Positions 12,796 through 52,653 of a DNA stretch of 64,000 nt are shown here, one piece after another. The notes beneath the pieces are model-generated. The model was not told the origin of the DNA, ran no database searches, and saw nothing but the letters and a program-made list of their open reading frames with translations. The first letter of the stretch is position 1. Each line of letters starts with the position of its first letter. Both the position numbers and the translations under genes were made by a program. Origin of the DNA: an uncultured Bacteroidales bacterium (GTDB taxonomy: Bacteria > Bacteroidota > Bacteroidia > Bacteroidales > Paludibacteraceae); contig CACZVM010000004.1 of assembly GCA_902784585.1 (NCBI GenBank), positions 91,883-155,882 on the forward strand, read 5' to 3'.

Positions 12796-13332
12796 TCATT
12801 TAAGAAAATTGCCACGCGCCCTTTCGCGTAACTCGGTAGAAGAAATATCAAAGTAAGGGGCTTCGCTCAAGAAGATGAGGTTCTTGCGATTGGTCATTGG
12901 TGATTGGTCATTGGTAATTTTGAATTGTCCCCTCCGCGGATATACAAAAATGCGGAAGTTGGTCAAGATATACTCATATTCACGCCATTGAGGGAATATA
13001 GCCAAATTATCCTCCCCAATAACAAGTGTGAACGTGTGCTCCGGATACGCCGCCTGCAGTGCTCGTAAGGTATTCGCCGTATAGGACGGCCGAGGCAATG
13101 AAAATTCGAAGTCACATGCCTTCACGCCGGGTATATCCTGTACAGCCTCGCGCACTGCAGCCAGACGCTCCTGCTCTGGCGCAAGGATACGTGCATCTTT
13201 CAGCGGGTTGCTTGGACTGACCATCAGCCATAGTTCATCCAGGTCGGTATGCTCCATCACCCACCTTGCCAATCCCACGTGACCGAAATGCACCGGATTG
13301 AAACTGCCTCCGTAGATACCTATTTGGGCCAT
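12796..13332 (-). CDS. nadD: Nicotinate-nucleotide adenylyltransferase
   Basis: 178 residues. It transfers AMP from ATP to nicotinate mononucleotide in NAD synthesis (cytoplasm). The nucleotidyltransferase signature GGSFNPVHFGH is at residues 8-18 and the C-terminal ISSTELRER at about 163-171. Residues ~136-148 (QFKITNDQSPMTN) have no counterpart I would expect in the family. They are encoded by the 7-base tandem repeat at 12889-12923, in a loop between the strand FRIFVYPR and the final ISST region, so function is probably kept. It is last in the mnmE-yicC-gmk-nadD series, 46 bases after gmk. Confidence 0.93.
   Translation of the reverse strand: MAQIGIYGGSFNPVHFGHVGLARWVMEHTDLDELWLMVSPSNPLKDARILAPEQERLAAVREAVQDIPGVKACDFEFSLPRPSYTANTLRALQAAYPEHTFTLVIGEDNLAIFPQWREYEYILTNFRIFVYPRRGQFKITNDQSPMTNRKNLIFLSEAPYFDISSTELRERARGNFLK
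12889..12923. repeat. 7-base tandem repeat inside nadD
   Basis: Units ATTGGTC, ATTGGTG, ATTGGTC, ATTGGTA then ATTTTGA. Three units make seven codons, so the array reads as a heptapeptide repeat (ITNDQSP MTN on the coding strand). Confidence 0.8.
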
Positions 13333-13360
13333 CAGAATTCAGAATTCAGCATTCAGCTCC
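13333..13360. repeat. 7-base tandem repeat upstream of nadD
   Basis: Units CAGAATT, CAGAATT, CAGCATT, CAGCTCC, abutting the nadD start codon (13330-13332). Confidence 0.75.
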
Positions 13361-13378
13361 TTTGTACATTACACATCG

Positions 13379-13936
13379 TCACTTTGTACTTTCGCCGATG
13401 ATAGCATCGAGTTGGGTGAAGGCATGATGCAAGTCGTCATTCACCACCACACGGTCAAACTGCGGCTTATACGACAGCTCTTCTTCGGCCTTGGCCAACC
13501 GTTTCTCAATCATCTCCGGACTGGTGTCTCCGCGCCCCTCCAACCGCCGGCGCAGTTCGTCAATTGACGGCGGGCAGATGAAGATAGAGGTAGCCTTGTC
13601 GCCCAGGATACGCTTCAGGTTGATACCACCCTTCACATCTACATCAAACAACACTTGCCGACCTGCTGCCTCGATGCGGGCTATCTCTTCCTTCAGCGTA
13701 CCGTAGTACAGTCCCTCATACACCTGCTCATACTCGATGAAGTCATCCCGCTTGATGCGGTCTTGAAATTCCTCCACCGTGATGAAATAATACTCCCGTC
13801 CGTGCACTTCTTTCCCGCGCGGCGGACGTGTAGTACAGGATATAGAGAGTTCAAACAAGTTTGGATGATTGGTGAGCAAATGGTTCACCATTGTCGATTT
13901 GCCGCTACCCGACGGCGCACAAAAAATGTATATCAT
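13379..13936 (-). CDS. gmk: Guanylate kinase
   Basis: 185 residues. It phosphorylates GMP to GDP with ATP. The P-loop APSGSGKST is at residues 7-15, the GMP-binding SCTTRPPRGKEVHGREYYF follows, and later come YGTLKEE and the lid-region Args (RRRLEGRG). It overlaps yicC by 4 bases (13933-13936), indicating coupled translation. Length and motifs are typical. Confidence 0.96.
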   Translation of the reverse strand: MIYIFCAPSGSGKSTMVNHLLTNHPNLFELSISCTTRPPRGKEVHGREYYFITVEEFQDRIKRDDFIEYEQVYEGLYYGTLKEEIARIEAAGRQVLFDVDVKGGINLKRILGDKATSIFICPPSIDELRRRLEGRGDTSPEMIEKRLAKAEEELSYKPQFDRVVVNDDLHHAFTQLDAIIGESTK

Positions 13937-14820
13937 AACACATTGAGTACTTGTTCCTTAATCTGTTCGAGGATGTCCTTCATCTTCACAACAATGATCT
14001 GCATCTCCGACTGGTTGCTCTTCGAGCCCAGCGTATTGATCTCGCGGCCCAACTCCTGAGCAATGAAGCCGAGTTTCTTTCCTACTCCGCTGCCGTTGGC
14101 GTCCATGGTCTCACGGAAATACTTTATGTGGTTAGTCAGTCGCACCTTCTCTTCGGTGATATCGAGTTTCTCCAGATAATAGATCATCTCCTGTTCCAGT
14201 CGGTTACGGTCGATCTGAGCCTGCGTATCCGCACTCAGTTGTGCCAGACTCTGTTCCAACCGTTCGCGTATCTTTGCCACACGTCCCTTCTCCAGCGGTT
14301 CCACTTGCCTGAGCAGGTCGGCAATGCCGTCCAGTTTCTCAGTGAACATTGCCTGCAACGCGGCTCCCTCTTGCGTGCGGAATGCGATGAAAGCATCGAT
14401 GGCCGTATTCAGCAGTGCCTGCACATTGTTCCACTCTTCTTCCGTCAGTTCCGACACATCCTCCTGCTGCTTCAATACATCAGGAAGACGCAAGATAGAG
14501 GCCATCACCTCGGCCGGTACTTCGCCGCCGAACTGAGTCTTATACTGCGCTGCGTACATCTTAGCCGCCTCCCAGTTGATAGCAGAAGGCTGAAGGCTGA
14601 CAGCTGAAGGCTCTTCCATATACATAGCCATATCCACTTTACCGCGTTCCAGACGCTGACTGACGATCGCACGCAGTTCCAGTTCGCGTGCACGCAACTG
14701 CGGTGCCAGACGCACCGACAGATCCATCGATTTGGAATTAAGGGAACGGATCTCGCAAATCAATTTGCGTCCGCGCAGTTGGCTTTCGGCTTTGCCATAA
14801 CCGGTCATTGATAAAATCAT
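13933..14820 (-). CDS. yicC: YicC-family endoribonuclease
   Basis: 295 residues. The N-terminus MILSMTGYGKAE and the C-terminus (EKVRLTNHIKYFRETM... GKKLGFIAQELGREINTLGS) are the family hallmarks (YicC-N and DUF1732). YicC proteins are reported as RNA endonucleases. Overlaps mnmE (14817-14820) and gmk (13933-13936) by 4 bases each. Residues ~69-78 (EPSAVSLQPSAI) are encoded by the 7-base repeat at 14582-14616 and look like an in-frame insertion between the two domains. Confidence 0.93.
   Translation of the reverse strand: MILSMTGYGKAESQLRGRKLICEIRSLNSKSMDLSVRLAPQLRARELELRAIVSQRLERGKVDMAMYMEEPSAVSLQPSAINWEAAKMYAAQYKTQFGGEVPAEVMASILRLPDVLKQQEDVSELTEEEWNNVQALLNTAIDAFIAFRTQEGAALQAMFTEKLDGIADLLRQVEPLEKGRVAKIRERLEQSLAQLSADTQAQIDRNRLEQEMIYYLEKLDITEEKVRLTNHIKYFRETMDANGSGVGKKLGFIAQELGREINTLGSKSNQSEMQIIVVKMKDILEQIKEQVLNVL
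14582..14616. repeat. 7-base tandem repeat inside yicC
   Basis: Five units: GCAGAAG, GCTGAAG, GCTGACA, GCTGAAG, GCTCTTC. The reading frame stays open through it. Confidence 0.72.
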
Positions 14821-16160
14821 TTGCCTATGCAGAATTTGCTGAATATATTGTTGAGTACTTCTTGATTCGTTATTTGTCCTGTCACCTCGCCGAGCGCAGA
14901 GAGGCAGTCTTGCAGGTCCAGCGAGAGCAGTTCGCCACTTAGTCCCTGAGCGAGACCTTCTTGCACCCGCACGATAGCCTCGTGGGCCCGACAGACGGCC
15001 TCGTAGTGACGGGCATTGCTCAGCATCACCGCGGCAGGCTCCATCGCCTCGCGTGCCACGCGCACCAATTCGCGTTTGAGCGGTTCGATATTGCCGGATT
15101 TAGCGGAGATGGAAAGCCTACTTCCGTTGGTTTCTCCCTGGAGGGAGACACCATCTCCGACAAGATCGCTTTTATTAAGCACTTCAATAATAGAGCCCGA
15201 TATTCCTTCTAGCTCCCCTCCTTTTAGGGAGGGGTTGGGGGTAGGCTCACTCACATGAACCACTATCTGCGCCTTCTCCGCCGCTTTCCTCGAGCGTTCC
15301 ATGCCCATATTCTCCAGTTCATCATCCGAACGGCGCAAGCCTGCCGTGTCGATCAACCGGAAGAGGATACCGTCCAGTAGCAGCGTGTCTTCTATCGTGT
15401 CGCGTGTTGTACCTTGTATATCGCTTACGATGGCGCGTTGTTCGCCCAGCAGGGCATTAAGCAGCGTTGATTTGCCTACGTTAGGTGCACCAACGATGGC
15501 CACGGCGATGCCATTGCGAATGGCATTGCCCGTACGAAAAGAACGGATCAGTGCCTGCAGCTTCTTTTCTATCTCTGCCGCCAGACTTTTCAGTTCGCTG
15601 CGATCGGCAAACTCCAGTTCCTCATGATCTGCGAAATCCAATTCCAGTTCGATGAGCGACGTGAAATGCAGCAGTCGTTCGCGCAGCCTGGTCAGTTCAT
15701 CGGAGACGGCTCCGCGTAACTGACTCAGCGCCAGGTCCTTCTCTGCCTTGCTACGCGCAGCTATCAGGTCTGCTACGGCCTCAGCCTGCGTCAGGTCCAT
15801 CCTTCCGTTGAGAAACGCGCGCCTGGTGAACTCACCGGGACAGGCTATACGTCCACCGGCATCCACCAACCACTGAAGCAAGGTCTGCTGGATATACAGA
15901 CTACCGTGACAAGCCACTTCCACTGTGTCCTCTCCCGTGAACGAATGAGGGGCTCGAAAGACGGAGCAAAGCACCTCGTCCAGTGTCTCGCCGTCGCGGA
16001 CTATATGGCCATGATGCACCGTCCCAGTCTTGGCTGCCGTCAGCGCCTTTCGACCACAAAACAAGCCGTCGACCAGACGTATCGCCTCGTCACCGGACAC
16101 CCGTACCACGGCAATGCCCCCTACGCCATACGGCGTTGATATAGCACATATCGTATCCAT
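14817..16160 (-). CDS. mnmE: tRNA modification GTPase MnmE
   Basis: 447 residues. With MnmG it installs the cmnm5 group on U34 of certain tRNAs. The N-terminal tetrahydrofolate-binding domain begins DTICAISTPYGVGGIAVVRV. The G domain has GAPNVGKSTLLNALLG, the segment DIQGTTRDTIEDT, DTAGLR and NKSD. The C-terminus ends FSKFCIGK with the catalytic Cys. The G domain carries two odd in-frame inserts: PTPNPSLKGGELEG (encoded by the palindrome at 15211-15245) and GVSLQGETNG (palindrome at 15121-15152). Both sit in loops around the NKSD motif. Its promoter's -7 element ends 9 bases before the ATG, so the leader must be very short. Confidence 0.95.
   Translation of the reverse strand: MDTICAISTPYGVGGIAVVRVSGDEAIRLVDGLFCGRKALTAAKTGTVHHGHIVRDGETLDEVLCSVFRAPHSFTGEDTVEVACHGSLYIQQTLLQWLVDAGGRIACPGEFTRRAFLNGRMDLTQAEAVADLIAARSKAEKDLALSQLRGAVSDELTRLRERLLHFTSLIELELDFADHEELEFADRSELKSLAAEIEKKLQALIRSFRTGNAIRNGIAVAIVGAPNVGKSTLLNALLGEQRAIVSDIQGTTRDTIEDTLLLDGILFRLIDTAGLRRSDDELENMGMERSRKAAEKAQIVVHVSEPTPNPSLKGGELEGISGSIIEVLNKSDLVGDGVSLQGETNGSRLSISAKSGNIEPLKRELVRVAREAMEPAAVMLSNARHYEAVCRAHEAIVRVQEGLAQGLSGELLSLDLQDCLSALGEVTGQITNQEVLNNIFSKFCIGK
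15121..15152. repeat. Palindromic in-frame insert (VSxLxGET type) in mnmE
   Basis: CTTCCGT precedes GGTTTC, then a stem TCTCCCT/AGGGAGA (15133-15139, 15142-15148) and GACACC. Same layout as 28961-28998 in trmO. On the coding strand it gives GVSLQGETN. Confidence 0.65.
15211..15245. repeat. Palindromic in-frame insert (PNPSLKGG type) in mnmE
   Basis: Stem CCCCTCC (15215-15221) with GGAGGGG (15228-15234), followed by GTTGGGGGTAGG. It encodes PTPNPSLKGGE. A related palindrome lies in the DUF58 gene at 37541-37569. Confidence 0.7.
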
Positions 16161-16168
16161 TCAGCCTG

Positions 16169-16200: not shown

Positions 16201-16204
16201 TAAA

Positions 16205-16377: not shown

Positions 16378-17949
16378 ATGGCAACACAAGAAGAAACCTT
16401 CAAGAAAATCGTCGCACACTGCAAGGAGTACGGATTCGTCTTCCCGAGCAGCGAGATCTACGATGGTCTGGGCGCTGTGTATGACTACGGTCAGAACGGC
16501 GTGGAACTGAAAAACAATATCAAGCGTTACTGGTGGGACTCGATGACCCTACTCCACGAAAACATCGTAGGCATCGATGCCGCCATCTTCATGCACCCGA
16601 CGACCTGGAAAGCGTCCGGTCACGTAGATGCGTTCAACGATCCGCTGATCGACAACCGTGACTCGAAGAAGCGCTACCGTGCAGACGTACTCATCGAAGA
16701 TCAGATCGCCAAGTACGACGAGAAGATAGAGAAAGAAGTGGCCAAAGCCCGCAAGCGTTTCGGCGACAGCTTTGACGAAGAGATGTTCAAGGCAACGAAT
16801 GAGCGCGTGAAGGAGCACATCGAGAAGCGCGAGGCACTGCACGAGCGTTTCGCCAAAGCGATGAACGACAACAACCTCGACGAGCTGAAGCAGATCATCC
16901 TCGACGAAGAGATAGTATGCCCGATCAGCGGCACGCGCAACTGGACCGACGTGCGCCAGTTCAACCTCATGTTCTCCACTGAGATGGGTTCAACGGCTGA
17001 CGGCGCGATGAAGATATATCTACGCCCCGAGACGGCTCAAGGTATCTTCGTCAACTTCCTCAACGTACAGAAGACCGGTCGCATGAAGATTCCGTTTGGT
17101 ATCGCGCAGATAGGTAAAGCCTTCCGCAACGAGATCGTAGCTCGTCAGTTTATCTTCCGTATGCGCGAGTTCGAGCAGATGGAGATGCAATTCTTCGTTC
17201 GCCCGGGAGAGGAGCTGAAATGGTTTGAGCACTGGAAGCAGTTCCGCCTCAAATGGCACAAGGCATTGGGTCTCGGCGATGAGAAATACCGTTTCCACGA
17301 TCATGACAAACTGGCGCACTATGCCAACGCCGCTACCGATATCGAGTTCCTGATGCCGTTCGGCTTCAAGGAGGTGGAGGGTATCCACAGCCGTACGAAT
17401 TTCGACTTGAGTTCGCATGCCAAATACAGCGGCAAGAAGATCGAGTACTTCGATCCGGAGCTCAACCAATCGTACACCCCGTACGTCATCGAGACCTCTA
17501 TCGGTGTGGACCGTATGTTCTTGAGCGTCATGTGTTCGTCGTACGAAGAGCAGGCACTCGAAGGAGGTGATACGCGTGTAGTACTCCATCTGCCGGCTGT
17601 TCTTGCTCCCGTGAAGGCTTGCATCATGCCGCTCGTCAAGAAAGACGGGCTGCCCGAGAAGGCACGAGAGATCATGAACGAACTGAAGTTCGACTTCAAG
17701 GTGGCATATGACGAGAAAGACTCGATCGGTAAGCGCTACCGCCGTCAGGACGCCGTAGGTACGCCGTTCTGTATCACTGTGGATCACGACACCGAGAAAG
17801 ACGGTTGTGTAACCGTTCGCTACCGCGACACAATGGCTCAGGACCGCGTGAAGATAGAAGACCTGCACGAGATCATCCGCAAGGCCACCGACCCGAAAGA
17901 GCTCTATCGCAAGATAGTAGGCGACTCGTTCGAAGATACGAACGAGTAA
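16378..17949 (+). CDS. glyS: Glycyl-tRNA synthetase (single-chain, class II)
   Basis: 523 residues. It charges tRNA-Gly with glycine (cytoplasm). The N-terminus has FKKIVAHCKEYGFVFPSSEI and GAVYDYGQNGVELKNN. Motif 2 region: FRNEIVARQFIFRMREFEQM. Motif 3: ETSIGVDRMFL. The C-terminal anticodon-binding domain starts near residue 400. This is the homodimeric type also found in eukaryotes and archaea, not the alpha2beta2 type. Monocistronic: divergent promoter upstream, strong bidirectional terminator downstream. Confidence 0.96.
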   Translation: MATQEETFKKIVAHCKEYGFVFPSSEIYDGLGAVYDYGQNGVELKNNIKRYWWDSMTLLHENIVGIDAAIFMHPTTWKASGHVDAFNDPLIDNRDSKKRYRADVLIEDQIAKYDEKIEKEVAKARKRFGDSFDEEMFKATNERVKEHIEKREALHERFAKAMNDNNLDELKQIILDEEIVCPISGTRNWTDVRQFNLMFSTEMGSTADGAMKIYLRPETAQGIFVNFLNVQKTGRMKIPFGIAQIGKAFRNEIVARQFIFRMREFEQMEMQFFVRPGEELKWFEHWKQFRLKWHKALGLGDEKYRFHDHDKLAHYANAATDIEFLMPFGFKEVEGIHSRTNFDLSSHAKYSGKKIEYFDPELNQSYTPYVIETSIGVDRMFLSVMCSSYEEQALEGGDTRVVLHLPAVLAPVKACIMPLVKKDGLPEKAREIMNELKFDFKVAYDEKDSIGKRYRRQDAVGTPFCITVDHDTEKDGCVTVRYRDTMAQDRVKIEDLHEIIRKATDPKELYRKIVGDSFEDTNE

Positions 17950-20457: not shown

Positions 20458-21744
20458 TTACAGTTGACGACCTGTAGCGTCAAACACTTTATCTCCGCGA
20501 ACGATACGCAGCTGACCATCGATGATCATCTTATGAGCTTTCTCGGCCACGCCGGTATTCTCAATACCTTCCTGACTTCCCCAGTCAATCGAGTATGCCT
20601 CATAGGTAGCCTGGTCAACCAGTTCTACATCAATCGAACCCTTGAACGTGCAGGAGTGCATGATCATATAGAGCGTTTGGTTGGCAGGCAGTTGCCATAC
20701 GTTGCTATCCTCAAAGCCGTTGGCCCAATAGAGCGTCACGCGTGTAGCACTCTCGCCCTGCCATCCTTTGGTCTTATATTGGTTGCCCTCTTCGTCCATC
20801 ATAGCAGCATATACAGCATTGTTGTAGGGACTTGGAGCCAACGAACCGGTCCAGCGGCCACGCTCATCGAATGTCAGCTCAGCCAACTGGGATTGAACAT
20901 TCCAGTCGCCACCGATAGAACCAATCAACGAGAAATCGTGGTATTGGCCCGACTCCTCCAGACCGGTATTGCCACCGGGTTGCTCACCGCCGCCAGGTTG
21001 ATCGCCACCACCGGGTTGCTCACCACTGCACGAACCGATATAGAGTTGGTCGGCATTCATCTTCAGCTTGATATAGAAATCGTAGCATCCGTCAGCCGTA
21101 CAGTTGTAGTGGTCGCCGTCACGCGTGATAGTAGCCACGCTGGCAGGATCCAGATCTACTGCCCAACCGGCATGGTTTACTGCGTCATAGAGTTGGAGCG
21201 ATGCACCGGCAGCTACCGATACACCCAGTACCATATACTCCTGGAAAGAAGGATCTCCGGGACTGGGATTCAGCGCTCCTGCATGATAATCCGTACCGTT
21301 GATCATGATGCCGTACGAAGCTGTTTGCTCTCCGCCACCGGGTTGCTCGCCGCCGCCAGGTTGATCGCCACCACCGGGATTCTCACCGCCGCTGCACGAA
21401 CCGATATAGAGTTGGTCGGCATTCATCTTCAGCTTGATATAGAAATCATAGCATCCGTCAGCCGTACAGTTGTAGTGGTTGCCATCACGCGTGATAGTAG
21501 CCACGCTGGCAGGATCCAGATCTACTGCCCAACCGGCATGGTTATCCGCATCATACAACTGCAATGTTGCACCGGCAGAAACCGATACACCCAGCACCAT
21601 AAACTCCTGGAAAGAAGGATCTCCGGGAGTGGGATTCTGAGTGCCGGCATGATAGTCCGTACCATTAATCATGATTCCATAACTTCCGGCACTCAGCGAC
21701 AATGACATCACTGCAGCTGCCATAAAAAAGAAAAACTTTTTCAT
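20458..21744 (-). CDS. Secreted protein with two near-identical starch-operon modules
   Basis: 428 residues. The signal peptide ends near residue 19 (SLSLSAG). Two ~95-residue modules (about 20-117 and 142-238) are nearly identical. Each starts YGIMINGTDYHAG and ends YDFYIKLKMNADQLYIG, and they are separated by Gly/Pro/Glu linkers (GGGDQPGGGEQPGGG). A third, different beta domain follows (~260-370, SLIGSIGGDWNVQSQLAEL), then the shared tail AHKMIIDGQLRIVRGDKVFD. The same module opens the neighbouring GH13 proteins (21783-23540 and 23555-26866), so I infer carbohydrate binding, probably starch. No catalytic residues are seen. This may be a binding or scaffold protein. Confidence 0.85.
   Translation of the reverse strand: MKKFFFFMAAAVMSLSLSAGSYGIMINGTDYHAGTQNPTPGDPSFQEFMVLGVSVSAGATLQLYDADNHAGWAVDLDPASVATITRDGNHYNCTADGCYDFYIKLKMNADQLYIGSCSGGENPGGGDQPGGGEQPGGGEQTASYGIMINGTDYHAGALNPSPGDPSFQEYMVLGVSVAAGASLQLYDAVNHAGWAVDLDPASVATITRDGDHYNCTADGCYDFYIKLKMNADQLYIGSCSGEQPGGGDQPGGGEQPGGNTGLEESGQYHDFSLIGSIGGDWNVQSQLAELTFDERGRWTGSLAPSPYNNAVYAAMMDEEGNQYKTKGWQGESATRVTLYWANGFEDSNVWQLPANQTLYMIMHSCTFKGSIDVELVDQATYEAYSIDWGSQEGIENTGVAEKAHKMIIDGQLRIVRGDKVFDATGRQL
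21022..21687 (-). repeat. Internal direct duplication of a module-coding unit
   Basis: Two copies, about 21022-21318 and 21388-21687, offset by 366 bases (122 codons). They are almost identical at DNA level over long stretches, including many synonymous positions. This points to a recent duplication or ongoing gene conversion. Confidence 0.85.
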
Positions 21745-21782: not shown

Positions 21783-23540
21783 CTAATGAATCCATTTGCC
21801 TTGTGCGTCGTACACTCTTTCGCCACAGCGGATATAGAGCTGACCATCCTTGACAAATTTCTGATTGCTGAGGGCTGAGGGCTGAATGCTCTCTATGTCC
21901 TGCGGATCACCATTGCCGGTATAGTACATCGCCACCTTGCCATCCTTGATCGCCTGGGTGTAACCAGCCGGAGCTGCCTCATTGGCCGCGGAACCCAAAT
22001 AGAGTATGACATTACCGTACTTTCCGTTGACGGTAGCCTTGTACCATCCGCTGCCGCTCTGCTCTGACACACTGCTCTCCGAATGAACTCCGGCCTTTCT
22101 GCGGGCAGTGATCATCGCCTTTATCTCCGATTTGTAGCGATACCAATGGGGCCAGAACACGCACGGGATACCCGGCATCGAGAGCATATAGGCGTTGCTC
22201 TGAAGAATCAGGTTCCGGTTGTTCAGCGATGTGCTGCCGTCGGTGCTGTTGCCGCAATCGGTATTATTGATGTCCGAACGGTTGAACGTATCATGGTTAT
22301 CCACGAAGTTGACTGCATACTTGGCATAGCCCTGTCCACGCAGACCCGGATTCTTCAGTTTACCGTAGTTGTTGGAAGCGAGGCCCTGCTGGTAGCAGGT
22401 ATAGAAACTGGCAAAATCGAAGGTCATCGTGTTCTTGCCCGCGTCATCTATACGCTGCTTGAGCACGGAAGCGTTGCCGTTCCAGTACTCCATCACCGAG
22501 ACATACGGCTTGGCGCTGGAAACATAATCATTGACATGACTAACATGATAACCGCCGCAATAATCAAAACGGAAGCCATCATAGCCAATCACATTTTTCA
22601 ACCATTTGAGGTAAGCACGGCACATTGCCTGCACATTCGTATTCTTATGATCCCAGTCGCGCGTACCAGGATAGTTGGCATTGGACTCCTGACCATCGTC
22701 CGGGTTTGTGCCCACGGAATAGCCGTTGTCCTTCGCCTCATCATTGCTGGTGATCCACGAACTATTAGGCGAGAAGGTGCCGTATTCCCCGAAGTTCTGG
22801 TCGAAGAAATCATTCCACGTGCTCTTGCTGCCGGCATGATTGATCACTACATCCGCGATGACACGCGCGCCACCGGCATGCAGCGCACTGATCAAACTAC
22901 TCAGTTCACCGGAGCCACCCATACGACAACTCTGATTGGAATACTGCGAGGGCAGATACCCCATTTCGTCTTTCGCCCGACAGGAGGGCGACAACCATAC
23001 CAATTGGAAATATGAAGCTATTTCATCGGCCTGTCCCTGCAGCACCGTCCATTTGGTAGTACCATAGGTATTATCGGTGTTGCTCTTCCAGTAGAACGCC
23101 TGCAGCATCACATCCGTACACTGGCTTGGCACTGCCGACGTGAAGTCGGTGGGCGTAGTACCGCCACCACCGCCCCCACCGGGGGTGTTCGTGCAGCCGG
23201 TACCGGGACCTATATAGAGTTCGTCGGCATTAAGCTTGATCTTGATATAGAAATCATAGCAACCGGCCACAGAGCACACATAACGGTTGTTCTGCAGCGA
23301 GAAAGCCGAGACAGAAGCCGCATTGAGAGGCTTAGTCCAAGCCACCGCGTTGTTAATGTCGTACAGCTCGCAGTAATCACCGGCATTGACATATATATGC
23401 GCCAGGTACTGGGAGAAGCCCTCAAAATCATCCGTGTGCGTAGCCGGATACACATCCGTACCGTTCACTCGAATGCCGAATTGCGCCTGCACGCCGAGCG
23501 TGCAAAGCGCAATAAGCAATATAGATAGGATTCGTTTCAT
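21783..23540 (-). CDS. Secreted GH13 alpha-amylase with N-terminal module and shared tail
   Basis: 585 residues. The signal peptide is MKRILSILLIALCTLGVQA. Residues ~20-115 are the starch-operon module (GIRVNGTDVYPA ... YDFYIKIKLNADELYIG), followed by a Gly/Thr linker and the GH13 barrel at ~133-480. Catalytic sites are GFRFDYCGGY (nucleophile), VMEYWNG (acid/base) and FVDNHDTF (transition-state Asp); VIADVVINH is conserved region I. A short C-domain and the tail (KFVKDGQLYIRCGERVYD) follow. The linker before the tail (IQPSALSN) is encoded by the 7-base repeat at 21860-21894. It is 14 bases after the 23555-26866 gene. Predicted secreted endo-acting alpha-amylase. Confidence 0.93.
   Translation of the reverse strand: MKRILSILLIALCTLGVQAQFGIRVNGTDVYPATHTDDFEGFSQYLAHIYVNAGDYCELYDINNAVAWTKPLNAASVSAFSLQNNRYVCSVAGCYDFYIKIKLNADELYIGPGTGCTNTPGGGGGGGTTPTDFTSAVPSQCTDVMLQAFYWKSNTDNTYGTTKWTVLQGQADEIASYFQLVWLSPSCRAKDEMGYLPSQYSNQSCRMGGSGELSSLISALHAGGARVIADVVINHAGSKSTWNDFFDQNFGEYGTFSPNSSWITSNDEAKDNGYSVGTNPDDGQESNANYPGTRDWDHKNTNVQAMCRAYLKWLKNVIGYDGFRFDYCGGYHVSHVNDYVSSAKPYVSVMEYWNGNASVLKQRIDDAGKNTMTFDFASFYTCYQQGLASNNYGKLKNPGLRGQGYAKYAVNFVDNHDTFNRSDINNTDCGNSTDGSTSLNNRNLILQSNAYMLSMPGIPCVFWPHWYRYKSEIKAMITARRKAGVHSESSVSEQSGSGWYKATVNGKYGNVILYLGSAANEAAPAGYTQAIKDGKVAMYYTGNGDPQDIESIQPSALSNQKFVKDGQLYIRCGERVYDAQGKWIH
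21860..21894. repeat. 7-base tandem repeat in amylase gene
   Basis: TCTGATT then GCTGAGG, GCTGAGG, GCTGAAT, GCTCTCT. Same unit type as in yicC (14582-14616). It lies at the hinge between the C-domain and the shared tail. Confidence 0.72.
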
Positions 23541-36931: not shown

Positions 36932-36971
36932 CTAGTCCACTAGTCAACTAGTCCACTAGTAAACTAGATTA
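36932..36971. repeat. 8-base tandem repeat between moxR and DUF58 gene
   Basis: CTAGTCCA, CTAGTCAA, CTAGTCCA, CTAGTAAA, CTAGATTA, ending two bases before the next ATG. Confidence 0.8.
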
Positions 36972-37864: not shown

Positions 37865-37886
37865 GAATTAAAAATTAAGAATTAAG
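37859..37886. repeat. 7-base tandem repeat at gene junction
   Basis: AATTAAG, AATTAAA, AATTAAG, AATTAAG; it contains the DUF58 stop codon and ends one base before the next ATG (37888). Confidence 0.82.
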
Positions 37887-37887
37887 A

Positions 37888-38817
37888 ATGTTTCTGAACA
37901 TCTTATTAGCGATAGTGGTGAGCGCGAGCATCGACTCGACGACGCTGATGATAGGCGACCAGACCGACCTGCACCTGCAAGTGACGCACGAGGCGTCGGA
38001 GCACGTGCAACTGCCGGTGTTCGGAGAGACGCTGCAGGACGGGATAGAGATAGTGGACCGCACGATAGTGGACACCACCACCCTGCCCGACGGCCGCGTA
38101 CAACTGAACCAATACCTGACGCTGACCTCGTTCAAGGACTCGCTGTTCGCCATTGATCCGCTGGTGGTGACCTGCGGCGAGGACTCGTTCTGGAGCGACG
38201 CGATGGCGCTGAACGTGGTGCAACCCTTTGAGGTGGACAGCAGTCTGGCCATCACCGACATCAAGGATATAGAGAAAGCACCCATATGGTGGTGGGGCAT
38301 CATCCGATGGATCCTGCTGGCTATCGGCCTCCTGCTGTTAGCCGTGGGTCTGTATTATCTATGGCGGTGGTATGAGAAACACCGCAAGCCGGAGGAAGAG
38401 GCCATCGACCCGATCCTGCTGCGTCCTGCCGACGAGGTGGCACTGGAGAAACTGGATGCCATCAAAGCACGTAAGATCTGGAAGGACGGCAAGGTGAAGG
38501 AATATCAGACCGAACTGACCGACGTCGTGCGCGAATATATAGGCCGCCGCTTCGACGTGCATAGCACCGAGAAGACGAGTGATGAGACGCTAAGAGAGGT
38601 AAAACCTCTATTGGTGAATGGTGATTTGTCATTGGTCAATGGAGATGGCAAAATCCTCTACGAGAACCTGCGCAAGATGCTGCAACTGGCAGATCTGGTG
38701 AAGTTCGCCAAGTGGCACACCACGCCCGACGAGAACGAACAAGCACTGACGACGGCGTATGAGTTCGTCAAGGAGACGACTCCGCAAGCGGAGGAAGAAT
38801 TAGAAATTCAAAATTAA
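37888..38817 (+). CDS. Bat operon membrane protein (conserved, unnamed)
   Basis: 309 residues. The short hydrophobic N-terminus (MFLNILLAIVVSASIDS) is a signal peptide, followed by a periplasmic beta domain (~20-115) resembling a small BatD-like domain. One transmembrane helix lies at ~130-152 (WWGIIRWILLAIGLLLLAVG), then a cytoplasmic helical part with EYIGRRFDVHSTEKTSDETL. This protein is regularly found between the DUF58 gene and batA. Residues ~240-250 (LVNGDLSLVNGDG) are encoded by the 7-base repeat at 38610-38644. Confidence 0.85.
   Translation: MFLNILLAIVVSASIDSTTLMIGDQTDLHLQVTHEASEHVQLPVFGETLQDGIEIVDRTIVDTTTLPDGRVQLNQYLTLTSFKDSLFAIDPLVVTCGEDSFWSDAMALNVVQPFEVDSSLAITDIKDIEKAPIWWWGIIRWILLAIGLLLLAVGLYYLWRWYEKHRKPEEEAIDPILLRPADEVALEKLDAIKARKIWKDGKVKEYQTELTDVVREYIGRRFDVHSTEKTSDETLREVKPLLVNGDLSLVNGDGKILYENLRKMLQLADLVKFAKWHTTPDENEQALTTAYEFVKETTPQAEEELEIQN
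38610..38644. repeat. 7-base tandem repeat inside the Bat membrane protein gene
   Basis: ATTGGTG, AATGGTG, ATTTGTC, ATTGGTC, AATGGAG: diverged units but unbroken phase and frame. Confidence 0.65.
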
Positions 38818-38832
38818 AAATTAAGAATTAAT
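38798..38832. repeat. 7-base tandem repeat at gene junction before batA
   Basis: AATTAGA, AATTCAA, AATTAAA, AATTAAG, AATTAAT. It encodes the last residues (ELEIQN) of the upstream protein, contains its stop, and reaches the batA ATG. Confidence 0.82.
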
Positions 38833-39846: not shown

Positions 39847-39847
39847 A

Positions 39848-40909
39848 ATGTTTCGATTTGCGAATATAGAACTATTATGGTTGCTGCTGAGCATCCCTGC
39901 ATTCGTGGCAGCCTATATCGTGTATACGCACCACAAGCGTCGCCAGCTGGAGGCGTTTGGTGACCCAGAACTGGTGGAGGCCTTGATGCCTAACGCCAGC
40001 CGTACACGTCCCACCGTCAAGTTCGCCCTGCTGATGGCAGCACTGGCGCTGCTGATCATTGCAGCGGCCCGTCCGCAGTTCGGACAGACCGAACGCACCG
40101 AGAAACGGCAAGGCATAGAGGCCATCGTGGCACTGGATATATCCAACTCGATGCTGGCTGAAGACGTAGCCCCGAACCGTCTGGACCGCGCCAAACAGAT
40201 GGTGAGCAAGATGATGGACAGGATGGTGAACGACAAAGTGGGACTGGTGGTGTTCGCCGGTGACGCGTTCATCCAACTGCCTATCACGTGCGACTATGTG
40301 TCGGCGAAGATGTTTCTGGGTAGCATCACCCCTAACCTGATCAAGACGCAGGGAACGGCCATCGGTCAGGCACTGAGCACCTCCATCCGCTGCTTCGGAG
40401 CAGCCAGCGAGGACGGACAAGCGTCAGTCAGCGACGCAAGCCGCGCCATCATCCTCATCACCGACGGCGAGAACCACGAGGACGATGCCGTAGCCGTAGC
40501 CAAGCGCGCCAAGGAAGAAGGTATCCGCGTGATAGTAGTGGGTATAGGCAAACCCGAAGGAAGTCCCATCCCCGTGCCGGGCACTAACAACTTCATCAAG
40601 GACCGTCAGGGCAATGTGGTGGTGAGCCGACTGAACGAAGACATGTGCCGCGAGATAGCACAGGCAGGCGGAGGCATGTATGTGCGCTGCGACAACACCA
40701 ACACGGCACTGCGTGCACTGCAGAAAGAACTGGACGAGATGGCTACACAAGAGATAGAGACCAGCGTCTTCACCGACTACAACGAGCAGTTCCAGAGCTT
40801 CGCGCTGCTGGCCTTGCTGCTGCTGGTGATCGATTTCTTCATCTTCAACCGAAAGAACAAAGCATTAACCCGTCTGGATATATTCGGGGAGATGAAAGAT
40901 GAAAAATGA
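39848..40909 (+). CDS. batB: BatB: VWA-domain membrane protein
   Basis: 353 residues, paralogue of BatA. Helices at ~5-25 and ~55-75 (FALLMAALALLIIAAARPQF), metal-site motif VALDISNSMLAED, VGLVVFAGDAFIQLPITCDY, IILITDGENHEDDA, and a C-terminal helix (FALLALLLLVIDFFIF). Acts with BatA in the Bat complex. The C-terminus (FGEMKDEK) is encoded by the start of the 7-base repeat at 40892-40926. Confidence 0.94.
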   Translation: MFRFANIELLWLLLSIPAFVAAYIVYTHHKRRQLEAFGDPELVEALMPNASRTRPTVKFALLMAALALLIIAAARPQFGQTERTEKRQGIEAIVALDISNSMLAEDVAPNRLDRAKQMVSKMMDRMVNDKVGLVVFAGDAFIQLPITCDYVSAKMFLGSITPNLIKTQGTAIGQALSTSIRCFGAASEDGQASVSDASRAIILITDGENHEDDAVAVAKRAKEEGIRVIVVGIGKPEGSPIPVPGTNNFIKDRQGNVVVSRLNEDMCREIAQAGGGMYVRCDNTNTALRALQKELDEMATQEIETSVFTDYNEQFQSFALLALLLLVIDFFIFNRKNKALTRLDIFGEMKDEK

Positions 40910-40926
40910 AAGATGAAAAATGAACG
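40892..40926. repeat. 7-base tandem repeat at batB-batC junction
   Basis: ATGAAAG, ATGAAAA, ATGAAAG, ATGAAAA, ATGAACG. It contains the batB stop and several possible ATG starts. Confidence 0.82.
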
Positions 40927-40931
40927 GTAAA

Positions 40932-41627
40932 ATGAAACGATTGATAACCATATTGTCATTTATCCTTTGTCCTATGTCCATCGTCCTTGCCCAGAAGGAA
41001 GCAAGCGACGTGCGCAGCGGAAACCGCGAATACAAGAAGCAGAACTTCACCGAGGCGGAGATAGACTACCGTCGTGCGCTGGAGACCAACAAAAACAGCT
41101 ACGAGGCCCATTACAACCTGGGTGACGCCCTGTTCAAACAAGACAAGTACGCCGAGGCGCAGACGGAGTTTGAGACCGCCGCCAAGCTGCTGGACACAAA
41201 GAAGGACAAAGAGCGCTACGCCAAGTCGATGCACAACATCGGCAACTGCGCCTTCGCCCAACAGCAGTACGACAAAGCCGTGGCTGCCTACCAGCAGTCG
41301 CTGCGCGCTAATCCCAAGGACAACGACACACGCTATAACCTGGTGAAGGCGATGGAACTGCTGCAACAGCAACAGCAGCAACAACAGCAGAACCAAGACC
41401 AACAACAACAGCAACAACAGCAACAACAGCAAGACCAGCAAGACCAGCAAGACCAGCAAGACCAGCAAGATCAGCAGCAGGAGCAAGAGCAGCAACAACA
41501 AGACGACCAGATGGACAAGGAGACGGCCGAACAGATTCTGCAAGCCCTGGAGCAAGACGAACAAGATACGCAAGAGAAGATGCAACGGCAGCAGGGGAAG
41601 AAACGCCGTGTAGAGAAAGAATGGTAG
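40932..41627 (+). CDS. batC: BatC: tetratricopeptide protein with polyglutamine tract
   Basis: The frame starts at 40920; I use 40932 because MKRLITILSFILCPMSIVLA is a clean signal peptide (231 residues). Residues ~20-135 are TPR-like (NFTEAEIDYRRALETNKNSY, YNLGDALFKQDKYAEAQTEF, AVAAYQQSLRANPKDNDTRY). Then comes a long tract dominated by Gln with repeated QDQ units (about residues 141-195), then an acidic/basic end. Periplasmic scaffold of the Bat system. Q-rich linkers occur in BatC proteins but this one is very long; the CAG/CAA mix suggests selection for the amino acid rather than simple slippage. Confidence 0.9.
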   Translation: MKRLITILSFILCPMSIVLAQKEASDVRSGNREYKKQNFTEAEIDYRRALETNKNSYEAHYNLGDALFKQDKYAEAQTEFETAAKLLDTKKDKERYAKSMHNIGNCAFAQQQYDKAVAAYQQSLRANPKDNDTRYNLVKAMELLQQQQQQQQQNQDQQQQQQQQQQQDQQDQQDQQDQQDQQQEQEQQQQDDQMDKETAEQILQALEQDEQDTQEKMQRQQGKKRRVEKEW

Positions 41628-41759
41628 TCGCGTTCGGCAACAAGTTCGCAAAGGTCGATACCACTCCGTTAAACCGACAAGCGACTTGTGCCTCCGCTCT
41701 CCCCACTGCAAACAGCCTATGGCTTGGTTTGCATCGGGGGCCCCGTAATAAAGAAGAGT
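41628..41759 (+). other. batC-batD spacer with dispersed repeat
   Basis: 132 bases, unusually long for this operon. It contains TCGCGTTCGGCAAC and GTGCCTCCGCTCT, both present in reverse complement in the tRNA-Phe leader (29529-29596), plus a TGCAAAC/GTTTGCA hairpin (41706-41733). No gene. Confidence 0.5.
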
Positions 41760-43604
41760 ATGAAGAAAATATTTACAATAGTAGTATGTCTCAGCATGGC
41801 CCTGACGGGCTTTGCTGAGGATGTGCAATTTAGGGCGCAGGCTCCGAGTCAGGTGATTGTAGGCCAGCCGTTCCAGCTGACCTACACCGTCAACCAGCGT
41901 AGCCGTGACATGCGTGCACCGGAGTTCACCGACTTCGACGTACTGGCCGGTCCGTACACCTCGACGAGCAGCAGCACGTCGTTCGTCAACGGTCACCGCA
42001 CCTCGTCCTTCAGTCAGGCCTATACCTACACGCTGATGGCGCAACGGGCCGGTACCTACACCATCCCACCCGCCACGGTGAAGGTGGACGGCGAGAACAT
42101 CCAGTCGAACGGCGTACGCATCCAGGTGCTGCCCGAAGATGAGCAGCCTGCGCAGCAAAGCAATCAGTCAGCAGCTGTCAGCAATCAGAGCAGTCAGTCC
42201 AGTCAAACCAGTCAGACCGCCTCGGAGAACATCTTCGTTCGCACGATAGCCAGCAAGATCCGTGTACATGAACAGGAAGCACTGATGGTGAGCTACAAGC
42301 TGTATTTCGCCAACGTGGATGTGGCCCAACTGACCAACAACACGAAGTTGCCGGAGTTCACGGGTTTTCTGAAGCAAGAGATCGAACTGGGAGAGATACA
42401 AGCCGAACTGGAGCACTACAACGGACGCAACTACCAGACGGCTGTACTCTACCGCACCATCCTCTATCCGCAGCACTCGGGTGACATCCAGATAGAGCCT
42501 GCCAAGTTCGAGGCCGTCCTGCGCGTGCAGACCCAACAGCGTGCACGAAGCATCTTTGATGATTTCTTCGGCAGTTACACCAACGTGACGAAGATGCTGA
42601 CAGCCCCCGAGGTGACGATACACGTGAGTGCCCTACCGAGTGGCAAACCGTCAGGTTTCTCAGGCGGCGTAGGTAAATTCAACCTCACCCCATCTATCTC
42701 GCAGACCGAACTGCAGACCAACGAGGCGGTAACCATCAAACTGGACATCACCGGTGCGGGTAACATGAAGCTGCTCAAGACCCCTGCCATCGATTGGCCG
42801 GAAGGCTTCGAGCCCTACGACCCGAAGGTGACCAACAACTTCGCCACCTCAACGGCCGGCGTGAGCGGTACAAAGTCGATAGAATATCTGGCTATCCCGC
42901 GCAGTCCGGGCGACTACACCATACCCGCCGTTCACTTCAGCTATTTCGACATAGAGGACAAGGCCTACAAGACCCTGAGTACACCCGAATATACGATTCA
43001 TGTGAAACGCGGGGCAGGAGAGCAGTCAGCAGCAAGTGGTCAGCAGTCAGGTGTAGTATCCTACACGCAGAAAGAGGACATCAAGCAACTGGGTACGGAT
43101 ATACGGTATATAGACACCAAGAACTTATCAATTCAAAATTCAAAATTCAAAATTCAAAATTACGAATGGATCTGGCTATGGTACGTCATTCCTTTGCTGA
43201 CAGCGATTGTTCTGCTGGTAGTACTGCGCAAGCAGATCAAAGAGGCGGCGGATGTCAACCGCATGCGATACAAACGTGCCAACAAGGTGGCGCAGAAGCG
43301 TCTGAAAGCCGCCGCGGCAGCACTGAAAGACAACCAGAAAGATGCGTTCTATGCCGCCATCGAACAAGCGGCGTGGACCTACCTGAGCGACCGCCTGAGT
43401 ATTCCTATGGCGGAACTAAACAAAGACAACATCGCCCAACTGCTGCGTCAGAAAGGCGTAGGCGATGGCCTCATCCATGAGGTGACCGACGTGCTGAGCA
43501 CAGCGGAGTTTGCCCGCTACGCACCGAGCACCGACCACGCGATGGATGACCTCTACAAGGCCACGACGAACATGATTAACAACCTAGAAGACCAGAAGAT
43601 ATGA
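41760..43604 (+). CDS. batD: BatD: oxygen-tolerance family membrane protein
   Basis: The frame opens at 41688; MKKIFTIVVCLSMALTGFAE at 41760 is a signal peptide, giving 614 residues. It shows the BatD pattern of beta domains: VGQPFQLTYTVNQRSRDMRA, NIFVRTIASKIRVHEQEALM, DIQIEPAKFEAVLRVQ, TNEAVTIKLDITGAGNMKLL. A transmembrane helix near residue 480 (WLWYVIPLLTAIVLLVVL) and a cytoplasmic helical end follow. Just before the helix, IQNSKFKIQN is encoded by the 7-base repeat at 43130-43164. Ser/Gln/Asn-rich linkers (42150-42225, 43020-43050) also look repeat-derived. Overlaps batE by 4 bases. Confidence 0.93.
   Translation: MKKIFTIVVCLSMALTGFAEDVQFRAQAPSQVIVGQPFQLTYTVNQRSRDMRAPEFTDFDVLAGPYTSTSSSTSFVNGHRTSSFSQAYTYTLMAQRAGTYTIPPATVKVDGENIQSNGVRIQVLPEDEQPAQQSNQSAAVSNQSSQSSQTSQTASENIFVRTIASKIRVHEQEALMVSYKLYFANVDVAQLTNNTKLPEFTGFLKQEIELGEIQAELEHYNGRNYQTAVLYRTILYPQHSGDIQIEPAKFEAVLRVQTQQRARSIFDDFFGSYTNVTKMLTAPEVTIHVSALPSGKPSGFSGGVGKFNLTPSISQTELQTNEAVTIKLDITGAGNMKLLKTPAIDWPEGFEPYDPKVTNNFATSTAGVSGTKSIEYLAIPRSPGDYTIPAVHFSYFDIEDKAYKTLSTPEYTIHVKRGAGEQSAASGQQSGVVSYTQKEDIKQLGTDIRYIDTKNLSIQNSKFKIQNYEWIWLWYVIPLLTAIVLLVVLRKQIKEAADVNRMRYKRANKVAQKRLKAAAAALKDNQKDAFYAAIEQAAWTYLSDRLSIPMAELNKDNIAQLLRQKGVGDGLIHEVTDVLSTAEFARYAPSTDHAMDDLYKATTNMINNLEDQKI
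43130..43164. repeat. 7-base tandem repeat inside batD
   Basis: AATTCAA four times then AATTACG. Encodes the linker right before the membrane helix. Confidence 0.85.
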
Positions 43605-49087: not shown

Positions 49088-49119
49088 TATTTGTGCACTT
49101 TTTTGCGATTTTTCTGCGA

Positions 49120-51104: not shown

Positions 51105-51124
51105 ATATTTGCGGAAGGAATAAC

Positions 51125-52087
51125 TTATAGCGACTTGATGTATTTATCCGCCTCGATAGCAGCCTTCGCACCACTACCGGCGGCTACGACCGCCTGACGA
51201 TAATGCGGGTCGGCGCAATCGCCTGCGGCGAAGACTCCGGGGAGGATTGGTGATTGGTCATTGGTGATTGGTGATTGATAGCATTGAGTGCTATTGTCAC
51301 GCGTAATGATAAATCCTTCGGCGTCGCGGGCGATATAATCCTTGAAGAGTTCGGTGTTCGGATGATGACCGATAGCCAGGAAGAAACCGTCGATAGCGAT
51401 ATGACGTATCTCCTCGTCCGATTCACCCTTACGATAGATGAGGTCCGCGCCCTGCACCTTGCCTTCTCCGGTCAGCTGCAGCGTGTTGTGCTCAAAGAGC
51501 ACCTCTATCTTGGGATTGGTCAGCACGCGCTGCTGCATGATTTCCGACGCACGCAGATAGGGTTTGCGCACGATCATATACACCTTCTCGCAGAGTCCGC
51601 TGAGGTAGTTGGCCTCCTCGCAGGCCGTGTCGCCACCACCCACTACGGCCACCGTCTTCTTGCGATAGAAGAAACCGTCGCAGGTGGCACAAGCCGACAC
51701 GCCGCGGCCGCGATAAGTGCGCTCGGACTCAATGCCCAGATAGCGGGCACTGGCACCGGTGGCGATGATGACCGCGTCGGCTTCGTATTCCTGCTCGTCC
51801 TCAACGATAACTTTCTTGGGAGAAACAGAGAAATCGACCTTGGTTACGATGCCGGAGACAAACTGCGTGCCGAAACGCTCCGCCTGACGACGCATATCGT
51901 CCATCATTGTGAAGGGATCGATACCGTCGGGATAACCGGGGAAGTTCTCCACTTCGGTGGTCGTCGTCAGCTGGCCGCCGAGTTGCGGTCCTTCGATGAG
52001 TACGGGCGAGAGGTTAGCTCGCGAAGCATATATAGCGGCTGTGTAGCCGGCAGGGCCGGAGCCGATGATTAAGCATTTCACTTTCAT
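51125..52087 (-). CDS. trxB: Thioredoxin reductase
   Basis: 320 residues. FAD-binding GSGPAGYTAAIYASRANL near the start, redox-active CATC in SACATCDGFF (near 135-140), NADPH-binding VVGGGDTACEEANYL, and the C-terminal FAD motif GVFAAGDCAD. Reduces thioredoxin with NADPH. Residues ~280-292 (YQSPITNDQSPIL) are encoded by the 7-base repeat at 51246-51280, inserted just before GVFAAGD where the family usually has a short surface loop. Overlaps lolA by 4 bases. Confidence 0.95.
   Translation of the reverse strand: MKVKCLIIGSGPAGYTAAIYASRANLSPVLIEGPQLGGQLTTTTEVENFPGYPDGIDPFTMMDDMRRQAERFGTQFVSGIVTKVDFSVSPKKVIVEDEQEYEADAVIIATGASARYLGIESERTYRGRGVSACATCDGFFYRKKTVAVVGGGDTACEEANYLSGLCEKVYMIVRKPYLRASEIMQQRVLTNPKIEVLFEHNTLQLTGEGKVQGADLIYRKGESDEEIRHIAIDGFFLAIGHHPNTELFKDYIARDAEGFIITRDNSTQCYQSPITNDQSPILPGVFAAGDCADPHYRQAVVAAGSGAKAAIEADKYIKSL
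51246..51280. repeat. 7-base tandem repeat inside trxB
   Basis: ATTGGTG, ATTGGTC, ATTGGTG, ATTGGTG, ATTGATA. Same unit as in nadD and trmO. Confidence 0.85.
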
Positions 52088-52653
52088 AAGCGCATATCGT
52101 TGACATAAGTGTCCTTGTCCGGACGCAAAACATATTCGGGTTGAGTAGTAATAAACTTGGGTTCTTTGAGCCGCAAGACCGTCGTTTTCTTCCCTTCTTT
52201 GAGTTCGACGGAAAGAGGGATGAGGTCGGCCGTGCGCAGTTTGAGCACAAAGCGGTTGATACCGATGGATTGGTCTTTCGGCGTGAGGGTGATAATGGTT
52301 ATTGGTGATTGGTTATTGGTGATTGCCCGCTCCGTGACGTTGCATACCGGCACAAGGGCTTGGGCATAGAGGAAGGGATTGGCTTCGCGCAGCTCGACCT
52401 CGGTAGGATTCGAGAGCGTCAGCTCGTCCACGTCGGCATTGTAGGTATAGAGCGTCTTGCCGTCGTAGGCAGACTCCAGACCGAACATCGTCAGGCGGAA
52501 CAGCTGTCCATGCATCGTGATCGTACCCGGATAGTTCATCGGGGCATTGACCTCTTCGCTCACCGTGATGGTGAAGTCCGACTGCATGGTCTTCGTCTCC
52601 ATATTGGAGAGGAAGGAAGAAAGGACCGTTAGTATGATAAATAATAGTTTCAT
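52084..52653 (-). CDS. lolA: LolA-like outer-membrane lipoprotein carrier protein
   Basis: 189 residues. Hydrophobic N-terminus (MKLLFIILTVLSSFLSN), then the LolA-type half barrel: SDFTITVSEE, YPGTITMHGQLFRLTMFGLE, SAYDGKTLYTYNADVDELTL, and the late strand FVLKLRTADLIPLSVELKEG. Carries lipoproteins across the periplasm. The order ftsK-lolA-trxB is typical of Bacteroidales. A short loop (AITNNQSPITI, ~113-123) is encoded by the 7-base repeat at 52301-52328. Confidence 0.9.
   Translation of the reverse strand: MKLLFIILTVLSSFLSNMETKTMQSDFTITVSEEVNAPMNYPGTITMHGQLFRLTMFGLESAYDGKTLYTYNADVDELTLSNPTEVELREANPFLYAQALVPVCNVTERAITNNQSPITIITLTPKDQSIGINRFVLKLRTADLIPLSVELKEGKKTTVLRLKEPKFITTQPEYVLRPDKDTYVNDMRL
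52301..52328. repeat. 7-base tandem repeat inside lolA
   Basis: ATTGGTG, ATTGGTT, ATTGGTG, ATTGCCC. Confidence 0.75.

Follow-up and report, generated by a model that had tools for sequence, protein, structure and literature searches.

Tandem heptad repeats of varied unit sequence in conserved enzyme loops and gene junctions of a Bacteroidales genus

Introduction

Small repeats of several kinds are known from bacterial genomes, among them the heptanucleotide tandem repeats of cyanobacteria, which carry the name STRR, the palindromic elements of Rickettsia, which are inserted in frame in genes, and phase-variable simple sequence repeats, which are short tandem units in genes. Here, we describe tandem arrays of 7-nt units (heptads) in a 64,000-nt stretch of DNA ("the window", C4:91883-155882) from an uncultured Bacteroidales bacterium, in further parts of its genome, and in species of the same genus. 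The constant feature of these arrays is their period, not any single sequence. The genome, G000, is a draft of 1,634,244 bases, 79% complete; its genus may be GTDB RF16. To judge by their record titles, in which RUG presumably stands for rumen, several close relatives come from ruminants.

Heptamer repeats have been described in cyanobacteria, Xanthomonas, Beggiatoaceae, and a few Bacteroidetes (PMC4679880, PMC4692102, and PMC6749651). In Nostoc PCC 7120, the unit is GGGGA(C/T)T; in Xanthomonas, two of which have 186 and 183 arrays, it is GGGNATC. These heptamers are over-represented in intergenic DNA, consist of a single G-rich unit, and may form G-quadruplexes (PMC4692102). TAACTGA repeats occur in Beggiatoaceae, some cyanobacteria, and five Bacteroidetes, including Paludibacter propionicigenes. 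This system has one unit, located mostly directly upstream of start codons, and indels between two Cyanothece strains are mostly 7 nt; 25 proteins contain or overlap repeats, 11 of them with reverse repeats, and seven of these 11 are without assigned function (PMC4679880).

The arrays described here belong, as a variant, with the heptamer repeats of cyanobacteria, Xanthomonas, and Beggiatoaceae. With the Nostoc and Xanthomonas heptamers, they share the 7-base step, many short degenerate arrays, some free positions, and length variation between close relatives (PMC4692102); unlike them, they have mixed units, lie within genes in about one third of cases, show a second step of 11, and change their unit at the same loop between species. 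They resemble the TAACTGA repeats in that heptamers occur in several phyla, including Bacteroidetes, in the overlap with stop codons, and in that forward TAACTGA repeats lie only at gene ends and reverse ones within genes (PMC4679880). Unlike that system, the genus has many units, carries them in conserved enzymes, and occupies one loop repeatedly. Among 85 arrays of G000, none has the TAACTGA unit in any rotation or on either strand, and GGG is absent from both strands of all 85 consensus units; four of the arrays contain GGG or CCC, and none has three such tracts.

As with the Rickettsia elements, a small repeat is tolerated in frame in conserved proteins. The Rickettsia elements, however, are palindromes, while the heptads are direct repeats; separate palindromes are found at the same nadD and trmO loops in other species. 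In contrast to phase-variable repeats, the identity of the unit changes as well as the number, there is no evidence of switching (one genome per species), and identified array genes encode ordinary enzymes or envelope proteins. A literature search, mostly without subscription papers, brought up no account of heptads in this genus, nor of their turnover at orthologous loops of enzymes.

Results

Arrays were called at lag 7 with at least 18 matches in 21 (the 18/21 rule), with Tandem Repeats Finder as a second caller. One genome per species was compared; all differences reported are differences between species. A first-pass annotation of the window had placed ATTGGTN arrays in nadD, trmO, trxB, and lolA, related arrays in batD and a Bat membrane protein gene, and GCTGANN arrays in yicC and an amylase gene. 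All eight stretches were read back at the positions it gave. The four ATTGGTN arrays are clear by both callers. The batD stretch (43130-43164) is an array, but its unit, AATTCAA, differs from ATTGGTN, and the other supposed relative (38610-38644) is degenerate and falls below the 18/21 rule. The amylase array passes the rule at 21857-21885; the yicC stretch (14582-14616) is degenerate and below it, with 80% matches in Tandem Repeats Finder. Pfam supports the gene names for CTP_transf_like (nadD), TrmO, Pyr_redox, YicC, alpha-amylase, and BatD, while lolA (23.4 against a cut-off of 26.8 bits) and the "Bat membrane protein", a DUF4381 match (23.7 against 27.2), are below cut-off. In the list, G026 is the species sister to G000 in the trxB tree.

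12888-12919, minus strand: ATTGGTN array (ACCAATN coding) in nadD (12796-13332, minus); loop KITNDQSPMTN
14585-14612, minus strand: degenerate GCTGANN heptads in yicC (13933-14820, minus); peptide PSAVSLQPSAI; below the 18/21 rule
21857-21885, minus strand: GCTGANN heptads in an alpha-amylase-like protein (21783-23540, minus), close to the C-terminus
28902-28960, minus strand: ATTGGTN array of about eight units in trmO (28413-29201, minus); peptide HHQSPMTNHQSPITND
38610-38644, plus strand: degenerate ATTGGTN-like heptads in gene 37888-38817 (plus); 11 residues fewer in G026; below the 18/21 rule
43125-43167, plus strand: AATTCAA heptads in batD (41688-43604, plus); peptide IQNSKFKIQN; other residues there in G026; +3 nt
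51244-51280, minus strand: ATTGGTN array in trxB (51125-52087, minus); peptide QSPITNDQSPIL; no array in G026, ACCGNTN-type heptads in G006
52293-52325, minus strand: ATTGGTN array in lolA-like gene (52084-52653, minus); peptide ITNNQSPIT; ACCGNTN-type heptads in G006

Alignment of orthologues bore out a non-ancestral origin of the array residues, which in most orthologues are missing or give way to other sequence at that position. At the lolA-like site, nine other relatives inspected by eye had no array. The sites also look tolerant, in line with the placement of arrays in surface loops or domain hinges. In an AlphaFold2 model of NadD (mean pLDDT 86), residues 131-150, located between strands 126-130 and 151-153, form a low-confidence loop that holds the array and has block means of 62 and 58; no part of the model is lower except its final seven residues (54). 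H. influenzae TrmO (1xqb) has no counterpart to about 31 residues of G000 TrmO at the array site. In a SpoU-type gene of G000 (locus L041, contig C3), the array occupies the linker between two Pfam domains, substrate-binding (residues 21-99) and SpoU (116-243).

Orthologues differ in what they carry at four enzyme loops: some have other heptads and some the same one, and others have small repeats of another kind or nothing at all (G000 is included in each count). In the case of nadD, 61 orthologues gave 53 distinct loops, 12 of which carry a period-7 array; lags 4-6 and 8-13 gave no array, and lag 14, a multiple of 7, gave nine. Units in these loops include ACCAATN in three, as well as GATTGAA, AATTCTC, CAATTNT, GGGCAGT, ATCAATN, and AACAGCC. 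Period-7 arrays are present in 6 of 30 trmO loops; among the 29 other orthologues, five have other period-7 arrays at the site and seven have only 2-3 residues. The SpoU/TrmH-type linker, compared in the best 30 of 178 genomes searched, has period 7 in 14 of 30. The trxB loop is a weak case, with period 7 in 2 of 30 loops and heptads that differ between the two. Shuffled loops gave a mean of 0 to 0.05 period-7 arrays, and lags 6, 8, 9, or 12 occurred in 0-3 loops per gene; at nadD, trmO, and SpoU/TrmH, though not at trxB, period 7 far exceeds the rest. Period-7 tracts also lie outside those loops (12 of 23 tracts in nadD, 7 of 12 in trmO, and 2 of 4 in trxB, counted in stop-to-stop frames that include some flanking DNA).

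The encoded peptides vary by species at the same loop (QSPITND, KLEIGDL, SIVNSQL, GQWAVG). Selection for an encoded heptapeptide, as an adhesive, ligand-binding, or targeting loop, would agree with the open orientation seen in 19 of 19 cases (below); given such widely differing peptides at one loop, the many species with no array there, and host proteins that are unrelated enzymes, we think it very improbable. The array peptide probably has no function beyond that of a tolerated loop. An artefact of assembly or binning might be suspected in draft metagenome genomes, G000 being 79% complete, and seven pairs of records, identical in both DNA and loops, each probably represent one genome entered twice (they were not counted as replication). 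Similar arrays, however, appear at orthologous loops across differently named projects (RUG, RGIG, UBA, and others), with open frames and variant bases within arrays, and an artefact is hardly credible.

The same loops host other elements, among them 18-base-type repeats, G-rich palindromes in trmO, and a palindromic element in nadD that encodes SSRQTGG.ASAEKG. A palindromic in-frame element (CCTCCCGACAAACGGGAGGAG...CTCTGCCGAGAAGG and variants) occupies the same place in the nadD loop of L174, L175, L185, L190, L197, L206, L219, and L230, and in L174 adjoins a heptad array. In the nadD loop of L182 and L203, a 27-base insert with the palindromic core TTAGCCCCTCAGGGGCACGA splits an AATTCTC array that is unbroken in the relative L201; a palindrome similar to the TTAGCCCCTCAGGGGCACGA core is also found in a G027 spacer. 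L202 and L230, with 94% DNA identity, have wholly different nadD loops, neither of them heptad. In trxB loops L051-L080, a QC(Y/F) motif stands ahead of the variable insert (before the repeat) in scattered lineages of the trxB tree, which suggests that loop alleles may have been exchanged between lineages.

The window has ten period-7 arrays, and another 400 kb of G000 has 75; together these make 464 kb (about 28% of the genome). The additional 400 kb were picked around ATTGGTN matches, which biases the count upward; the window was not so picked. First-order Markov shuffles of all 464 kb gave no period-7 array, and in the window each lag from 2 to 13 other than 7 gave 0 or 1. ATTGGTN makes up 4 of the 10 window arrays and 42 of 85 in the sample partly chosen around it, beside many other units. 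In the 1.63 Mb draft, (ATTGGTN)3 has 142 overlapping matches and the reversed control 0; the 100 matches listed fall at at least 36 separate places. By strand, 102 matches are forward and 40 reverse, and those listed lie mostly on one strand per contig (contigs C1-C8), mainly plus on C1-C4 and minus on C7-C8. Intergenic autocorrelation peaks at 7, 14, and 21 in G000 and is weak in relatives.

Fifteen relatives of the genus, sampled over 775,498 bases in stretches of which about half were the trxB neighbourhood, gave 71 arrays at lag 7, 25 at lag 11, 15 at lag 8, and 9 at lag 9; every remaining lag in 4-13 gave at most 4. The 19 outgroup genomes, from the same order and sampled over 266 kb, gave two arrays at lag 7, four at lag 10, and none at lag 11. 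Among the first ten species sampled in the genus (masked N runs excluded), lag-7 arrays occur in all ten and lag-11 arrays in eight, outnumbering lag 7 in three (G083, G014, and G011). Period 11 is a second step of the genus. Units across relatives are varied (GGGTTAC, AAAGGTG, ATTTATR, TCAGTAT, AGCCGTC, and others). (ATTGGTN)3, absent from 24 further genomes of the order, is present in 23 of 37 genus genomes (G000 included), against 4 of 37 for its reversed control. Period-11 arrays of G000 include window 33750-33775 and 33856-33886, L032:2872-2935, and L045:9861-9924, the last two being identical 64-base copies at two genome places.

By our own gene caller, which missed nadD and so placed its array among the intergenic ones, 29 of the 85 arrays are wholly in genes, 28 overlap a stop codon and 4 a start codon, and 24 are intergenic; 56 are thus not wholly within genes, and 25 of 71 are within genes in relatives. 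Several intergenic arrays extend from the stop codon to a few bases short of the next start. ATTGGT-family arrays called within genes read ACCAATN on the coding strand in 19 of 19 cases, while 9 of 11 over stop codons have ATTGGT in sense, supplying TGA or TAA. By direct reading of the code, ATTGGT(A/G) gives TGA or TAA in every third unit, while ACCAATN translates as T, N, N/H/D/Y, Q, S/L, P, I/M provided that the TNA codon has C or T at N. The intragenic bias towards ACCAATN is explained by the need to keep the frame open. The seventh base is G52 A8 C8 T3 within genes and G55 A51 C7 T7 outside; bases 1-6 deviate in 7 of 426 cells within and 12 of 720 outside genes, in a tally that admitted only units with at least 4/6 matches and thus favours fixed positions 1-6.

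A fixed ATTGGT core with one free base, together with the many arrays at gene junctions (28 of 85 over stop codons and 24 intergenic), could be expected of binding sites, each 6 bases long and spaced every 7 bases, for a regulator acting on DNA or RNA; such a role has been proposed for the Beggiatoaceae TAACTGA repeats. We consider this improbable, because many differing units coexist in one genome, 29 of 85 arrays are intragenic with an orientation that tracks the reading frame, and the spacers of relatives often have other units or none.

Alignment to the sister species G026 was made with 466 kb of its sequence, to which 18 of the 85 arrays could be aligned. Seven intragenic arrays differ in length between the two species by 105, 3, 33, 6, 12, 39, and 0 nt. 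These differences do not support the first-pass idea that units come in multiples of three, nor does a pooled length-class test (p = 0.014 in G000, an opposite trend in relatives, and p = 0.28 together); one case matches, a G586 methylase linker that is 7 codons longer than that of G000. Intragenic arrays mostly replace native sequence and are not added as 3n units. Array-bearing linkers are less variable in length than others in the SpoU-type gene (Levene p = 0.039) and nadD (p = 0.023), but not in trmO (p = 0.43); the species are not independent. Of the 14 SpoU-type linker alleles with arrays, 12 are 26 or 27 codons long over the segment compared, and their units include unrelated ones.

At L041, a stretch that contains the SpoU-type gene and the gene next to it is ~99.5% identical to G026. 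L041:14350-16135 is near-identical to L244, while the next kilobase (16400-17550) differs by ~27% (~73% identity in the same alignment); on the evidence of these sequences, this is a recent recombination between two species of the genus. The flanks show 8 differences in 1490 bases (14400-15889) and 0 in 190 (15946-16135), with three further differences 12-20 bases from the array. The array itself (15910-15945) differs from that of G026 at 24 of 36 positions and has the opposite orientation, with equal length and the frame kept. A short GCTGANN-like tract near 15720 of the same gene is unchanged. The G026 allele, PIGDCSLVIGDL, in whose frame C stands in the unit where A or G would give a stop, looks older than that of G000, because it resembles the linkers of L256, L263, L271, and L275. 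The array was either rewritten after the exchange or spared by two exchanges. A clean in-place inversion was rejected, since by eye the inverted G026 array fits G000 no better than another ATTGGTN array does. Rfam gave no match at this locus.

Unit families are shared by 17.2% of 308 same-species pairs of arrays and by 7.4% of pairs between species (81 arrays, 16 species), against a permutation null with a mean of 8.3% and a highest value of 13.6% in 1000. For arrays at least 2 kb apart, the figures are 13.5% vs 6.2% (p = 0.012), and for those at least 5 kb apart, 15.6% vs 5.3% (p = 0.002). In G006, both lolA and trxB have ACCGNTN-type heptads where G000 has ACCAATN in both. The earlier claim that one unit recurs in unrelated genes holds to the extent that sharing exceeds the null; units may also spread between loci.

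Slippage acting locally and alone, by which arrays grow in place from short native seeds with a 7-nt preference due to polymerase geometry and no copying between loci, would account for units that are very varied within and between species, for the single ACCAAT at the empty trxB site of G026, and for the failure to find donor copies (see Discussion), and a polymerase-footprint idea for heptamers is given in PMC4692102. It does not readily account for recurrence of the ATTGGT core at dozens of unrelated places, within-species sharing above the null, opposite orientation of one site in sister species, or replacement with little or zero length gain at several sites. We therefore regard it as possible, though unlikely.

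Many arrays beyond the first-pass list are present in the window, often at gene junctions. Compared with up to 10 relatives, these junctions often have other heptads, 11-mers, or a few bases.

13330-13357, no strand assigned: ATTCAGN heptads at the nadD start/upstream junction
37854-37890, plus strand: TTAAGAA heptads spanning a stop codon and the spacer that follows, up to the next gene; between aligned flanks, 49 nt in G000 vs 19 nt in G026
38803-38832, plus strand: AATTAAR heptads over a stop codon
39812-39844, plus strand: AATTAAA/AATTAAG heptads filling the 30-bp spacer 5' of a VWA/BatA-type gene; stop and start nearly touch in G026
40889-40924, plus strand: AGATGAA heptads over a stop codon
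43612-43642, plus strand: ATTGGTA-like heptads at the start of a TPR/SH3 gene; score 41
55373-55412, no strand assigned: ATTTTAG/ATTTCAG heptads, intergenic; AAAGTTG/AAAGGTG-type heptads there in several relatives
56357-56388, plus strand: AATTCTT/AATTCAT heptads at a gene junction
57747-57778, plus strand: AAATCAC/AAATTAC heptads that fill a spacer between genes; almost identical heptads in G030, different ones in several relatives

Other repeats of the window include a period-8 array centred on CTAG at 36930-36967, AACTAGTC, at a junction where G026 has another CTAG array, TCTAGAAN; a 366-base tandem duplication at 20971-21675, 90% alike, with 18-base repeats in protein 20458-21744 (minus); and a CAG/CAA-rich tract at 41363-41500, towards the end of open reading frame 40920-41627 (plus).

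Discussion

The step of the arrays is fixed and the unit varied; the sites are tolerant, the orientation keeps the frame open, and arrays are replaced between sister species. We consider it reasonably probable that a genus-wide, ongoing mutational process makes and rewrites tandem tracts with a step of 7 (and also 11), and that selection mainly sets where tracts stay. As we read it, turnover is fast and mainly neutral at any protein or spacer site that tolerates it, and arrays are probably copied from site to site. Tracts would start by replication slippage or a transient misalignment of ~7 nt at tolerant sites. The unit might then be changed by copying from other genomic arrays, through ectopic template switching or gene conversion, and such copying would give each species its common unit families, ATTGGTN in the case of G000.

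A length-neutral activity with a 7-nt step is conceivable, in which stretches of genes are overwritten by the unit of a 7-base neighbour or another array, in either orientation and with the frame kept; the loops of conserved enzymes would thereby be resampled over and over. It is suggested by the 12 of 14 linker alleles of 26-27 codons and by the sister-pair array flipped or replaced in a tract of ~99.5% identity; we put it forward as a tentative and doubtful idea. Ku-dependent end joining is an unlikely source, because Ku (PF02735) was found in 0 of 61 genomes, with a positive B. subtilis control.

Several observations weigh against rapid, genus-wide turnover with copying between sites. For the five arrays tested, no other copy with fewer than 3 mismatches was found in 464 kb (~28% of the genome). 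The 7.4% sharing between species indicates some sequence preference or common descent; ACCAATN recurs in the nadD loops of L172 and L174 and in the SpoU-type linker of L260. Some arrays are, to judge from their sequences, inherited tracts with drifting units, because the SpoU-type linker peptide PI(G/E)DxxLx(I/V)(G/E)D(L/I) is common to G026, L256, L263, L271, and L275. The pattern of six fixed bases and one free base is not predicted by plain slippage. Turnover is not universal, since junction 57784/58798 has a short plain spacer in 8 of 8 relatives compared. Two exchanges that spared the array would also explain the SpoU-type tract, and the claim of speed rests on this single tract.

Nor are heptads as such confined to the genus: they occur elsewhere in the phylum, because (ATTGGTN)4 matched 13 of 395 Bacteroidota genomes and its reversed control 22 of 395. 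Confinement of ATTGGTN itself to the genus is ruled out by (ATTGGTN)4 in 12 of 394 other Bacteroidota genomes, 11 of which have one identical seventh base in the listed matches. A planctomycete match, L232, has no period-7 or period-11 array.

An over-representation of the 7-base period in bacteria has been noted before, with a cause given only as a guess about the polymerase footprint (PMC4692102). A genus with 178 species genomes, in which the same loop is refilled by different heptads, provides natural replicates. Its fixed sites let birth, orientation, length, and replacement of arrays be read, and slippage, copying between sites, and selection thus become separable. The arrays show a route by which spacer-type repeat DNA becomes a protein loop in conserved enzymes with the frame unbroken.

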